NCBI RefSeq assembly: GCF_021730305.1
Contig: NZ_CP032674.1
Coordinates: 2,899,001 to 2,963,000 of the forward strand
From: Xanthobacter sp. YC-JY1
Lineage (GTDB): Bacteria > Pseudomonadota > Alphaproteobacteria > Rhizobiales > Xanthobacteraceae
Length of the DNA stretch: 64,000 nucleotides
Direction: 5' to 3'
Part shown: piece by piece, positions 19,701 through 31,969 of the stretch
Layout: each line of letters starts with the position of its first letter
Position numbering within the stretch: the first letter of the stretch is position 1
Program-made: the position numbers and the translations under genes
The notes under the pieces: model-generated
The model's input: only the letters and a program-made list of their open reading frames with translations
Told to the model about the DNA's origin: nothing
The model's database searches: none

Positions 19701-22121
<2,421 letters not shown>

Positions 22122-22280
22122 GACGCAATCCTTTCAAGAAGTGCACGCGCTGGATTTGGGCGCAGAACTGCGTTGCCGCGCGTGCACGCGGCCGGAGACG
22201 GGCGTGGATTTTCAATGCTGAAGCGGCTTGCGCCGCAGGAGGCACGAGGTCCGACCCCCGAGACCGGAACTTTCGAAAAG

Positions 22281-22310
22281 TAGATGGACACGCAACCTGC
22301 CCGTTTCAAG
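22281..22310 (-). promoter_or_regulatory. Probable sigma-32 (RpoH) promoter of lon
   Basis: On the minus strand CTTGAAA (-35, from 22310) is followed, 18 bases after its CTTG, by TCCATCT. The alphaproteobacterial RpoH consensus is CTTG-N17/18-CYTATNT. The predicted start lies about 150 bases before the lon ATG. The remainder of the 22122-22538 gap shows no gene. Confidence 0.5.
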
Positions 22311-22538: not shown

Positions 22539-23807
<1,269 letters not shown>

Positions 23808-24283: not shown

Positions 24284-24919
24284 TCAGGCGGCCTTCACGG
24301 CCTCGTCGGTCGGGCGCTTGTCGATCACGGAATCGATGAGCCCGAACTCCTTGGCGGCTTCCGACGTCATGAAGTTGTCGCGCTCGAGGGCGTTCTCGAT
24401 GGCCTCGAAGGGCTGGCCGGTATGCTTCACGTAGATTTCATTCAGCCGCTTCTTGAGGCTGAGGATTTCCTGAGCGTGGAGCATGATGTCCGTCACCTGG
24501 CCCTGGAAGCCGCCGGACGGCTGATGGACCATGATTCGGGCGTTAGGCAGCGCGAATCGCATCCCCTTCTCGCCTGCGGTCAGCAGCAGCGAGCCCATGG
24601 AGGCCGCCTGGCCGATGCAGAGCGTCGACACCGCCGGCTTGATGAACTGCATGGTGTCGTAGATGGCGAGGCCCGACGTCACCACTCCCCCGGGGGAGTT
24701 GATGTACATCGAGATTTCCTTCTTCGGGTTGTCCGCCTCGAGGAACAGCAGCTGCGCCACCGCGAGCGTGGCCATGCCGTCCTCGACCGGGCCGGTGAGG
24801 AAAAGGATGCGCTCCTTCAGGAGGCGGGAAAAGATGTCGTAGGACCGCTCGCCACGGTTGGTCTGCTCGACCACCATGGGGATCAGGTAATTCATGTAAG
24901 TATCAACAGGATCACGCAT
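24284..24919 (-). CDS. clpP: ATP-dependent Clp protease proteolytic subunit ClpP
   Basis: 211 residues. The catalytic triad is Ser107 (GQAASMGS), His132 (MVHQPSGG) and Asp181. The start [21 protein letters not shown] is the usual alphaproteobacterial one, so ATG 24919 is chosen; the frame continues 15 codons upstream without family similarity. ClpP forms the 14-mer chamber that works with ClpX or ClpA. It lies downstream of tig, on the same strand. Confidence 0.98.
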
Positions 24920-24959
24920 CTTAAAACCCCCAGGGGCGCATAGGGAGGGCGCGGGTAAA

Positions 24960-25018: not shown

Positions 25019-26371
25019 TCAGGCCGCCTTCTCGTCCTCGTCATCCTTGAAGAGCTCTTCCTTGGTGACCGTCTTCTCGGTCACGTTGGCAAGCTCCAGG
25101 AGGAAGTCGACGACCTTCTCCTCGAACAGGGGGGCGCGCACGGACGCCAGAGCCTCGGGGGTGCGGCGGTAATAGTCCCACACCTGCTGCTCCTGGCCGG
25201 GGAACTGGCGGGCCCGTTCGACCACCGCGCGCGTCACCTCGTCGTCGGAAACCTGGATATTGTTGCGCTCCCCGATTTCCGCAAGCACCAGGCCGAGGCG
25301 CACGCGGCGCTCGGCGATGCGGCGGTAGTCCTGGCGAGCCTCGTCCTCGGTGGTGCCTTCATCGACGAAGGTGCGGCCCTGGGCGGCGAGATCCTCGTTC
25401 ACCCGGCTCCACACGCCGTAGAACTCCTGCTCCACGAGGCCTTCCGGCACGTCGAACTTGTGGGTCGCGTCGAGGCCGTCCAGCAGAGCGCGCTTCACCT
25501 TCTGGCGGGCGGCGCCGGCATATTCCTGCGCGATGCGGGCCTTCACGGTCTCCCGGAGCTTCTCGACACTCTCCTGGCCGAGAGTCGCGGCGAAGGCATC
25601 GTCCACCGCGATCGCACCGGGTGCGTCGACGGACTTGACGGTCACTTCGAAGGTCGCGGCCTTGCCGGCGAGTTCCTTGGCCGCGTAAGCCTCGGGGAAG
25701 TTCACGTTGAGGGTGCGGTTCTCGCCCGCCGAAGCGCCGACGAGCTGCTCCTCGAAGCCGGGGATGAAGCCCTTGGAGCCGATGAGGACGTCGATGTCCT
25801 GGCCTTCGCCGCCCTGGAACTTCTCGCCGTCCACATAGCCGGTGAAGTCGATGGTGACGCGGTCACCCTCGGCGGCCGGGCCTTCCTTGGTGGCGAAGGG
25901 GCGGTTGGCATCGGCGATGCGCTGCACCGCCTCGTCCACCTCAGCCTCGGTCACCTCGACCACGGGCTTCTCGACGGAGATGTCCTTGAAATTGCCGAGC
26001 TCGATCTTCGGCAGGATCTCCAGCTCCACGTCGTAGGCGAGGTCCTTGCCGCCATCGAGCAGGGTCTGGAACTGGGGGTCCTCTTCCGGACCCTTGATCC
26101 GGGGCTGGAGCGCCAGCTTGAAGCCGTGCTCCTCGACGATCTTGCCGTTGGTCTCGTTGACGGTCTGCTCGATGATCTCGGACATCACGGACTTGCCGTA
26201 GACGCGCTTGAGATGGGCCACGGGCACCTTGCCGGGGCGGAAGCCGTTCAGCTTCACCTGGCCCTTGAGCTCGTTGAGCCGGGCGTCGGCCCGGGCGTCG
26301 AGGTCGGCGGCGGACACCACCACACGGAAAGCGCGCTTGAGGCCCTCGGCCCCGGTCTCGGTCACCTGCAT
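25019..26371 (-). CDS. tig: Trigger factor (ribosome-associated chaperone and prolyl isomerase)
   Basis: 450 residues. The ribosome-binding signature GFRPGKVP is at about residues 43-50, the FKBP-like PPIase domain (about 160-245) contains GDRVTIDFTGYVDGEKF and IPGFEEQLVGA, and the C-terminal helical chaperone arms follow. It binds nascent chains at the ribosome exit. The C-terminus is highly acidic and Lys-rich, as is common. The order tig-clpP-clpX-lon-hupB is a classical proteostasis arrangement. Confidence 0.97.
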   Translation of the reverse strand: MQVTETGAEGLKRAFRVVVSAADLDARADARLNELKGQVKLNGFRPGKVPVAHLKRVYGKSVMSEIIEQTVNETNGKIVEEHGFKLALQPRIKGPEEDPQFQTLLDGGKDLAYDVELEILPKIELGNFKDISVEKPVVEVTEAEVDEAVQRIADANRPFATKEGPAAEGDRVTIDFTGYVDGEKFQGGEGQDIDVLIGSKGFIPGFEEQLVGASAGENRTLNVNFPEAYAAKELAGKAATFEVTVKSVDAPGAIAVDDAFAATLGQESVEKLRETVKARIAQEYAGAARQKVKRALLDGLDATHKFDVPEGLVEQEFYGVWSRVNEDLAAQGRTFVDEGTTEDEARQDYRRIAERRVRLGLVLAEIGERNNIQVSDDEVTRAVVERARQFPGQEQQVWDYYRRTPEALASVRAPLFEEKVVDFLLELANVTEKTVTKEELFKDDEDEKAA

Positions 26372-26527: not shown

Positions 26528-26612
26528 TGGTGCGGGCGGAGGGTTTCGAACCCCCACGACTTGCGTCACGGGAACCTAAATCCCGCGCGTCTACCAGTTC
26601 CGCCACGCCCGC
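26528..26612 (-). tRNA. tRNA-Leu (TAG)
   Basis: 85 bases with encoded CCA. The acceptor arm GCGGGCG pairs with CGCCCGC; the anticodon stem GGGA/TCCC encloses loop TTTAGGT, anticodon TAG. The long variable arm expected of a class II tRNA is present. Confidence 0.96.
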
Positions 26613-27067
26613 GGCCCCGTCTCGCCAAAGGCCCGTCGCGCCCAAAGGCCCGTCATGCCTGCGAGGTGTCGCCGGGCACGGGGACGGCACCGAAGCGCTT
26701 GAGCGCACGACGCCTCCGGGCACAGCTCCACCGCTCGCGCACGAGGCCGCACGCGCCGTTCGGGTCGCGGCTTATATCATGCCCGTGCGGTCGCGCAGCA
26801 AGAAAATGGCGCCCGCGACCGCACGCTCCCCATCGCGCGTGCATCACGGCACGACGCCGCATCCCCGCCCGAGGAGCAGCCTGCGGAGCGTATGGCCGGC
26901 CGGCGGAAGATTGTATGCCGCCAAGCTTTCGCTCGCAGATGAGATCAAAGGAGGTGCCGCGTCGACGGAGCAGTCCGTGCAGCGGCGCTGGGGAACGCTT
27001 GAGCAAAGCCGCTTGCCCTTTTTCCGGCCGCGTAACATGGTCCACCCACCCCGCCAGGAGATGCCGC
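26613..27067. other. 455-bp intergenic stretch between tRNA-Leu and the multicopper-oxidase-like gene
   Basis: No gene is supported here; the open frames running through it lack ribosome sites and family features. It should contain the promoters of tRNA-Leu (minus) and of the plus-strand gene. The only clear signal is the AGGAG at 27056-27060 serving the next start codon. Confidence 0.4.
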
Positions 27068-28309
27068 GTGAGCCCGTCGATTCCCTCTCGTCGCAACGTT
27101 CTCAAGGGGGCTGCGGCCCTGTCGTTCGCCGGCGCTGCCGGTGCCCTGTTGCCGGACTGGGCGTTGGCGCAGGGCCAAGGCGCCGGCCCCGTCTCGCTCA
27201 CGGCCACGGAAGGCACCCGGCCGGCCATCGCCGGTCAGGGCAACCTTGCGCTCTTCAACGATTCTCTGCCGGGCCCCGTGCTGCGGGTGACGAAGGGGAG
27301 TGAACTTCAGGTCCAGTTCGCCAATGCGCTCAAGGAGAGCGTGGGCCTGACGTGGCAGGGCGTGCGGTTGCCGACCGATGCCGCCACTTCCGCCTCCGCG
27401 GCCGTCGCTGGCGGGCAGAACAAGCTGATCCGGCTCACGCCCAAGGATGCCGGCACCTTCTGGTACCACGCCACGTCCCCGGCCCTCGCCCGCCGCGCGC
27501 TCTCCGGCGCGCTCATCGTGGCCGAGCCCGGCACGCCAGCCTACGCCTCCGACAACCTGCTGTTCATCCAGTCGTTTCCGCCCGAGAGCGGGGTGCCGAT
27601 CTTCCCGGTGAACGGCGAGTTCTCGCCGACATTTCAGGGTCCCGCCAGCGGACGCAGCCGGCTGCGGCTCGTGAACGCCACGCCCCTGTTCCTCCGCCTG
27701 CGGCTGAAGGGCCCGGCCGCTTACGCCATTGCCATCGACGGGCAGCCGGTCGCCCAGCCGTTCGAACTGAAGGACGGCCGCCTCCAGATGCCGCCGGGCG
27801 GGCGGGTGGATGTCGCCGCGACCATCGACGACGCGGATGCCACCATCATCGAGATCGAGACATCGCAGGAGCCGATCCGGCTCGCGGTGGTGACGCCGGT
27901 CGGGCCCGCAGGCCCCCTGCCCTCCGGCCCGCCCGCGCCGCTCCCGCCAAACGATTTGCCGGCTGACATTCCGCTGAAGGATGCCGTTCGCGTCGAGCTG
28001 CCCATCGGAGGGAAGAGCGGCGCCTCCACCTCGCTCGGCACCGTGAAGTCAGGCAAGGCAATGGTTCTGACCCTCACCAACAGCCTCGATGCTCCGGTGT
28101 CGGTCCATGTCGCCGGCCACGCGGTGCGGCTGCTCGACGGCCTCGACGATGGCTGGAAGCCGTGGTGGCACGACACAGTTCCTGTGCCGGCTAAAGCGAC
28201 AGTAAGGGTGGCCCTTCTGGCCCAGACGACCGGGACGTGGAGCGTTACGGCGCAGCGGGGCGGCGATGGCGAGGTCGTCGCCTCGGCGACGTATCAGGTC
28301 ACGGCCTGA
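27068..28309 (+). CDS. Tat-exported multicopper-oxidase-fold protein lacking copper ligands
   Basis: 413 residues. A twin-arginine signal (SRRNVLKGAA, cleavage near ALAQ) leads into three cupredoxin-like domains of multicopper-oxidase type. The fold is recognisable (LPGPVLRVTKG, VRLVNATP-like RLRLVNATP, WHDTVPVPAKATVRV), but the copper motifs have decayed: HWHG is LTWQG (94-98), the WYHxH motif is WYHAT (133-137), HPxHLHGH is VSVHVAGH, and the final HCHxxxH block with the type 1 Cys is WSVTAQR (about 391-397). It cannot be a normal laccase or cuprous oxidase; E. coli FtsP/SufI is a known copper-free relative. The start is GTG 27068 with AGGAG seven bases upstream. It is transcribed alone. Confidence 0.85.
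   Translation: MSPSIPSRRNVLKGAAALSFAGAAGALLPDWALAQGQGAGPVSLTATEGTRPAIAGQGNLALFNDSLPGPVLRVTKGSELQVQFANALKESVGLTWQGVRLPTDAATSASAAVAGGQNKLIRLTPKDAGTFWYHATSPALARRALSGALIVAEPGTPAYASDNLLFIQSFPPESGVPIFPVNGEFSPTFQGPASGRSRLRLVNATPLFLRLRLKGPAAYAIAIDGQPVAQPFELKDGRLQMPPGGRVDVAATIDDADATIIEIETSQEPIRLAVVTPVGPAGPLPSGPPAPLPPNDLPADIPLKDAVRVELPIGGKSGASTSLGTVKSGKAMVLTLTNSLDAPVSVHVAGHAVRLLDGLDDGWKPWWHDTVPVPAKATVRVALLAQTTGTWSVTAQRGGDGEVVASATYQVTA

Positions 28310-28440: not shown

Positions 28441-30492
<2,052 letters not shown>

Positions 30493-30553: not shown

Positions 30554-31969
<1,416 letters not shown>

Follow-up and report, generated by a model that had tools for sequence, protein, structure and literature searches.

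A multicopper oxidase descendant that has lost most of its copper ligands at the tig–nnr locus of Xanthobacter sp. YC-JY1, probably a non-catalytic binding or scaffold protein

Introduction

An active multicopper oxidase (MCO) binds four copper ions through ten histidines and one cysteine, which are distributed over four motifs. In plants, the SKU5/SKS proteins are MCO-related proteins of eukaryotic type and of separate origin. The change from an enzyme to a non-enzyme is usually visible only as an end state. The E. coli protein SufI (FtsP) keeps only two of the copper ligands of CueO, and its crystal is reported to contain no metal (PMC2661564). The insect protein MCORP is described in its abstract as missing many copper ligands and having no oxidase activity, and it is essential in a beetle (PMC4203857).

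In this study, we describe an MCO-like gene in a stretch of 64,000 nucleotides of Xanthobacter sp. YC-JY1 (NZ_CP032674.1, positions 2,899,001 to 2,963,000), which is called the window here and to which all coordinates refer unless another locus is named. At the chromosomal position of this gene, intact, half-eroded and fully eroded forms of the protein are all found within one order of bacteria. We believe that the window protein is a copper-free, non-catalytic descendant of an MCO and probably serves as a binding or scaffold protein.

Materials and Methods

Relatives were collected in a scan of one genome per species (84,980 species), and the best 80 of at least 562 confirmed relatives were named. 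For the alignment, relatives were pooled via the window protein, the intact relative L046 and a profile; open reading frames of at least 330 residues were used, one per set with identical last 300 residues, which gave 192 aligned proteins. Positions were compared between 75 proteins with eroded copper motifs and 44 intact ones, after both sets had been thinned to below 70% identity, and the groups used for conservation were thinned to 18, 60 and 51 proteins. The motifs of the window protein were read against intact homologues. The names of seven neighbouring genes were read by eye and then checked against family models. The comparison of neighbours across relatives relied on tig, clpP, nnr and glnA.

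Results

Gene and export signal

The gene, its start and its signal are as follows.

27068..28309, + strand: gene of the copper-less MCO-like protein, 413 aa, GTG start
27056..27060, + strand: Shine-Dalgarno-like AGGAG, 7 nt upstream of the GTG start, read in the sequence
27068..27172, + strand: Tat-type signal peptide, residues ~1–35 (SRRNVL...ALAQ), with a putative cleavage site

The reading frame is open upstream of the GTG as far as 26516. A start further upstream was considered and rejected, as GTG 27068 is favoured both by the AGGAG that precedes it and by similarity to orthologues. No sigma-70-like site was found in the promoter scan.

The twin arginines of the signal are residues 8–9 of the open reading frame 27068–28309. 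Both signal models score just below their cutoffs, Pfam TAT_signal with 16.0 bits (cutoff 22.7) and TIGR01409 with 15.5 bits (cutoff 16.7). Both arginines were present at the aligned columns in 75 of the 75 thinned eroded relatives, whereas a simple RR pattern matched in 101 of the 130 eroded rows from the same locus; we attribute this gap to trimmed N-termini and to the strictness of the pattern. We infer that Tat delivers the protein to the periplasm in folded and soluble form.

Copper motifs and fold

The four former copper motifs lie at the following positions.

27347..27361, + strand: former motif 1, LTWQG replacing HWHG, residues 94–98
27458..27475, + strand: former motif 2, FWYHAT replacing FWYHxH, residues 131–136, first His kept
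28097..28120, + strand: former motif 3, VSVHVAGH replacing HxxHLHGH, residues 344–351, middle His kept
28232..28258, + strand: former motif 4, GTWSVTAQR replacing GxWxxHCHxxxH, residues 389–397

Nine of the 11 copper-ligand positions are replaced, so that of the ten His and one Cys of an active MCO only two His are left (His134 in WYHAT and His347 in VSVH). The ligand positions are presumed to belong to the type 1, 2 and 3 copper sites as we have assigned them; at the type 1 Cys position the window protein has Ala395. X. aminoxidans (L035/L006) and the X. autotrophicus-type congeners have Tyr at position 347, so His347 is not conserved. Two MCO genes with intact motifs are present elsewhere in the same genome.

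The Pfam models Cu-oxidase_3 (E 5e-22) and Cu-oxidase_2 (E 3e-6) both match the window protein. The AlphaFold2 model (mean pLDDT 89.3, pTM 0.87) aligns with an MCO across residues 36–412, and its predicted fold has three cupredoxin domains in the MCO arrangement. The best structural match was 6vow (Z 44.0, rmsd 2.8 over 364 residues), followed by 4f7k (Z 42.3), a Thermus laccase (40.5), 6vox (39.8), SufI (38.3) and CueO (37.6). Since the nearest solved structures are MCOs and the ligands are replaced, the predicted fold was retained and the copper ligands were not. Proteins of this kind are easily mislabelled as oxidases, because the Cu-oxidase_3 model matches eroded and intact proteins alike (60 of the 60 members of one alignment).

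A preliminary description of this DNA had claimed that the MCO fold and the Tat signal are kept while all four motifs (LTWQG, WYHAT, VSVHVAGH and WSVTAQR), the type 1 Cys included, are replaced. The structure prediction, the RR at residues 8–9 and our own reading of the motifs agree with it. Its wording that every copper motif is eroded is correct and can be refined, in that His134 and His347 remain.

Chromosomal locus and neighbours

The order of genes is lon, clpX, clpP and tig, all on the − strand, then tRNA-Leu (−), the MCO-like gene (+), nnr (−), the P-II gene (+) and glnA (+).

19701–22121, − strand: lon
22539–23807, − strand: clpX
24284–24922, − strand: clpP
25019..26371, − strand: tig (trigger factor), divergent upstream neighbour; TIGR00115 426.6 bits, cutoff 180.2
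26528..26612, − strand: tRNA-Leu between tig and the MCO-like gene (ARAGORN)
28441..29931, − strand: nnr (NAD(P)H-hydrate epimerase/dehydratase), convergent downstream neighbour; scores above cutoff with both yjeF domain models
30154–30492, + strand: P-II protein gene, called glnB here; just below its two model cutoffs
30560–31969, + strand: glnA; above the cutoff of one of two models

The window gene is thus divergent from tig and convergent to nnr. The same arrangement with tig and/or nnr was found at 75 of the 80 named loci (67 with both, 6 with tig only and 2 with nnr only), a sample that leans toward the kin of the window because only the best 80 of at least 562 relatives were kept. Among these best 80, the locus is found in Xanthobacter, Aquabacter, Azorhizobium, Bosea, Blastochloris, Chelatococcus, Rhodopseudomonas, Nitrobacter, Tardiphaga and Bradyrhizobium. 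The remaining five loci, without tig or nnr, come from three Oceanospirillum, one Dinoroseobacter MAG and one Hyphomicrobiales MAG, and all 11 ligands are kept there. No operon partner was found within the 64-kb window, and the conserved neighbours, which are genes of proteolysis, NAD(P)HX repair and nitrogen metabolism, point to no function.

Nine loci were inspected, and some of them have extra open reading frames between the MCO-like gene and nnr. From their translations, these were read as an enolase-like frame in several Bradyrhizobium and as a pair of SPFH-like and NfeD-like genes in one Bradyrhizobium (L062, 9321–11488), with different frames at further loci. In the window, an open frame of 859 aa lies antisense to lon (19704–22283, + strand); other long antisense frames are also present in the window, so this one is probably no gene.

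In B. diazoefficiens, lon, tig and glnA carry the tags bll4942, bll4945 and blr4949 (PMC6320959), from which the orthologue there should be blr4946; this tag is not named in the open-licence literature searched. Among candidate tags in R. palustris, RPA2963 is given as RelA/SpoT (PMC13343836).

Ligand states across relatives

Among the 192 aligned proteins, 133 lie at the tig–nnr locus. Three of them keep all 11 ligands and 130 keep 0–7, which is a loss of 4 to 11 ligands; 55 of the 130 keep two. A further 59 aligned relatives were not seen at the locus, and 10–11 ligands are kept in 54 of them. The locus could have been missed in 15 of these 59 rows, because their flanks are shorter than 2.5 kb (on both sides in 11, on one side in 4); among the 44 rows with at least 2.5 kb on both sides, 42 keep 10–11 ligands. 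The five off-locus rows with at most seven ligands comprise L237 and L244, which lie at contig ends and carry the signature described below, and L203, L208 and L215, which are further MCO-like open reading frames.

The three intact proteins at the locus are L046 and L049, both from MAG records, and L194, which has tig and clpP beside it. Seven eroded proteins at the locus still have Cys at the type 1 column. In L132 (the same gene as L032), 7 of 11 ligands remain; all ligands of motifs 1–3 are kept and only those of the HCH motif are lost. L132 and the intact L046 form a sister pair, with SH-aLRT 99 in a tree of 86 rows, and probably represent a recent step of ligand loss. At the HCH motif, L046 reads HCHMLEH and L132 reads DYRRLGY.

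Number of losses

In the same tree, which was made by a quick method without the ligand columns and leaves 30 of its 83 inner branches open, the eroded proteins do not form one group. A single clade of eroded proteins was rejected with p-AU 0.000166, again with the ligand columns left out; this test covered 59 rows (43 eroded against 16 other), L198 with its very long branch and other rows being set aside. The rejection of one eroded clade indicates that the ligands were probably lost more than once, in different branches. On these trees, the copper sites would have been lost at least twice, unless they were regained.

Selection

Among seven members of the genus, the window included, dN/dS (Nei–Gojobori) was 0.07–0.21, with a value of 0.08 for the window against either of its two nearest relatives, which places the gene under purifying selection. 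In the family, 119 of 149 genomes match the window protein at E ≤ 0.001, a count that includes ordinary MCOs.

The preliminary description had named a result that would count against it, namely that orthologues keep the ligands and this copy is simply decaying. We found the opposite: an alignment of orthologues, the check it had proposed, shows ligands lost in 19 of 19 close orthologue rows and in 130 of the 133 relatives at the locus. Decay of a single copy was ruled out by this common loss and by the dN/dS values. Its view that a function other than oxidation keeps the protein conserved gains support from the same two results, from the near-fixed position and from the new signature.

Signature in domains 2 and 3

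Two sequence features set the eroded proteins apart.

28145..28162, + strand: signature loop DDGWKP, residues 360–365, followed by WWHDT, domain 3
27761..27763, + strand: Phe232 in DGQPxxPF, domain 2, second part of the signature

The window protein carries both. The loop, as [DY]DGW[KER]P, was found in 127 of the 130 eroded proteins at the locus versus 0 of the 54 intact relatives not seen there, and Phe at position 232 in 130 of 130 versus 9 of 54. In the comparison of the thinned sets, the positions more conserved in the eroded set were D360, D361, G362, W363 and P365 (99–100%), K364 (89%), F232, R354, L356, R196 and A306 (100%), and R308 and R380 (93%). At the level of DNA pattern matches, DDGW[KE]P occurs in 88 of 149 sampled family genomes, compared with 6 of 149 for the reversed pattern; four Xanthobacter genomes with YDGWRP are missed by it. 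In other orders of the class, 8 of 285 genomes match, and none of the eight matches reads as an MCO.

Of the three intact proteins found at the locus, L046 and L049 carry both parts of the signature and L194 has neither. The L194 gene (5186–7081) is an intact MCO gene divergent from tig, and nnr was not found adjacent to it. This gene may show what the locus was like before the signature arose, or it may have been inserted independently.

The old copper cavity

In the clade of the Xanthobacter type (18 thinned proteins), ten of the 11 former ligand columns lie at a conservation percentile of 0.40–0.85, and the eleventh is the invariant Val344. This middling to high variability indicates that the old site has drifted in this clade. 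Position 347 is Gln in 7, His in 5, Tyr in 5 and Leu in 1 of the 18, and position 134 is His in 10 and Arg in 8, with His134 kept within the genus. In the clade of the Bradyrhizobium type (60 thinned proteins), old ligand positions hold His (51 of 60), His (59 of 60), Asp (51 of 60) and Glu (57 of 60), a former type 1 position holds Trp (59 of 60), and two further positions hold Arg (35 and 40 of 60). The protein at L060, 7932–9314, is an example with His, His, Asp, Glu and Trp in the cavity. Judged by its residues, this set could form salt bridges that plug the cavity, or it could be a new metal site.

Discussion

The relay of electrons from the type 1 copper to the trinuclear site could not be expected to run without its ligands, and this step leads us to think that the window protein would not be an oxidase. 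In the Xanthobacter-type clade the former active site drifts, yet a loop of domain 3 and a residue of domain 2 stay conserved, so what the protein still does is most likely to bind. The partner would be bound via the surface around the DDGWKPxWxD loop together with Phe232. Two intact MCOs at the locus (L046 and L049) carry the signature, so the protein probably took up its binding role while still a working oxidase, and that role rendered copper unnecessary. In this proposed order, a binding interface would form on the oxidase, catalysis would become dispensable, and a copper-free binding or scaffold protein of the periplasm would remain. By analogy with FtsP/SufI, it most likely serves the cell envelope as a scaffold or by binding. 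It counts against this explanation that both intact carriers of the signature are MAGs or MAG-titled records, that His134 is kept in the genus and that the His/Asp/Glu set of Bradyrhizobium could bind a metal. The signature could also be structural instead of an interface. As a whole, we still consider a copper-free, non-catalytic binding or scaffold protein to be the probable explanation. The series at one position, together with the signature in two intact copies, makes the order of events testable: which of the functions is older, which of the copper sites is the first to fail, and what is bound today.

Other explanations were weighed against this one. The drifting ligand columns would suit a decaying gene, as would a protein that evolves faster than its neighbours (31% identity to the Bradyrhizobium protein L047, versus 58% for tig and 57% for nnr), but the low dN/dS, the lack of stops among the family matches listed and the signature, retained across proteins less than 70% identical, make decay scarcely credible. 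It seems rather unlikely that a metal is still bound in a rebuilt or partial site and that the protein is a metal carrier or a new enzyme: the nearly fixed His/His/Asp/Glu of the Bradyrhizobium-type branch and the His134 and His347 of the window protein speak for it, whereas columns 347 and 134 vary in the window's own clade, and Arg at two more former ligand positions of the Bradyrhizobium branch suits a salt-bridge plug better. A joint history is similarly doubtful, in which the cavity of the Bradyrhizobium–Rhodopseudomonas–Nitrobacter branch was rebuilt as a new non-copper metalloprotein site of two His and two carboxylates, the window branch became a pure binding protein, and the interface (DDGWKP and Phe232) came from an ancestor at the oxidase stage. 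Descent from an MCO and the intact-motif MCOs of the same genome would fit a role alongside intact MCOs or in copper handling, as partner, sensor or decoy; we regard this as very improbable, since the conserved neighbours are proteolysis and nitrogen genes, which is a weak point that concerns the named neighbours only.

The remaining alternative is that the protein is the functional counterpart of FtsP, a divisome protein that would stabilise the septal ring in these alphaproteobacteria. An MCO fold without the full set of copper ligands, as known for FtsP, was found in the window protein, and its structural scores for SufI and CueO are tied within 1. The FtsP model NF008135 (PRK10883) matches 32 of 60 aligned relatives at E ≤ 1e-5 (best E 9.4e-26). 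No protein of the Xanthobacter sp. YC-JY1 genome exceeds the cutoff of this model, and its only match there is the window protein (28.2 bits). However, against a curated cutoff of 581 bits the window protein reaches 32.8 in the direct comparison, and it is scored higher by the CopA and CueO models (55.7 and 50.8 bits) than by the FtsP model. The closest structures are copper-containing laccases or MCOs, and a separate origin is suggested by the intact relatives that occupy this locus. A counterpart of FtsP is therefore an unlikely reading, if the least unlikely of the alternatives. Where the preliminary description had proposed FtsP/SufI, the likeness in fold and copper loss (SufI Z 38.3; PMC2661564) has stood, and membership of that family has not (32.8 versus 581 bits).

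No paper recognisable as dealing with this gene, or with copper-less MCOs of these organisms, was found in the open-licence literature. A series at one chromosomal position that runs from intact proteins to eroded ones, in which intact copies already bear the signature, seems to be new. By fold and by sequence profile, the closest proteins are the laccase-like MCOs 6vow (P. thermotolerans), 6vox (P. parafulva) and 4f7k (the metagenomic Lac15); 6vow and 6vox keep HWHG, WYH and HLHG where the window protein does not, in alignments that end before the HCH motif. MCORP is likewise MCO-related with reduced copper ligands, but it is eukaryotic and of separate origin, and no series of intact to eroded forms at one position is described in its abstract (PMC4203857). 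FtsP (SufI) of E. coli (PDB 2uxt/2uxv) is similar in its three-domain MCO fold, in Tat export (putative for the window protein) and in the two ligands kept in each (PMC2661564). It differs in that the two proteins share 20% identity over the structural alignment, and in that the window gene occupies a locus of its own, where intact relatives also occur.
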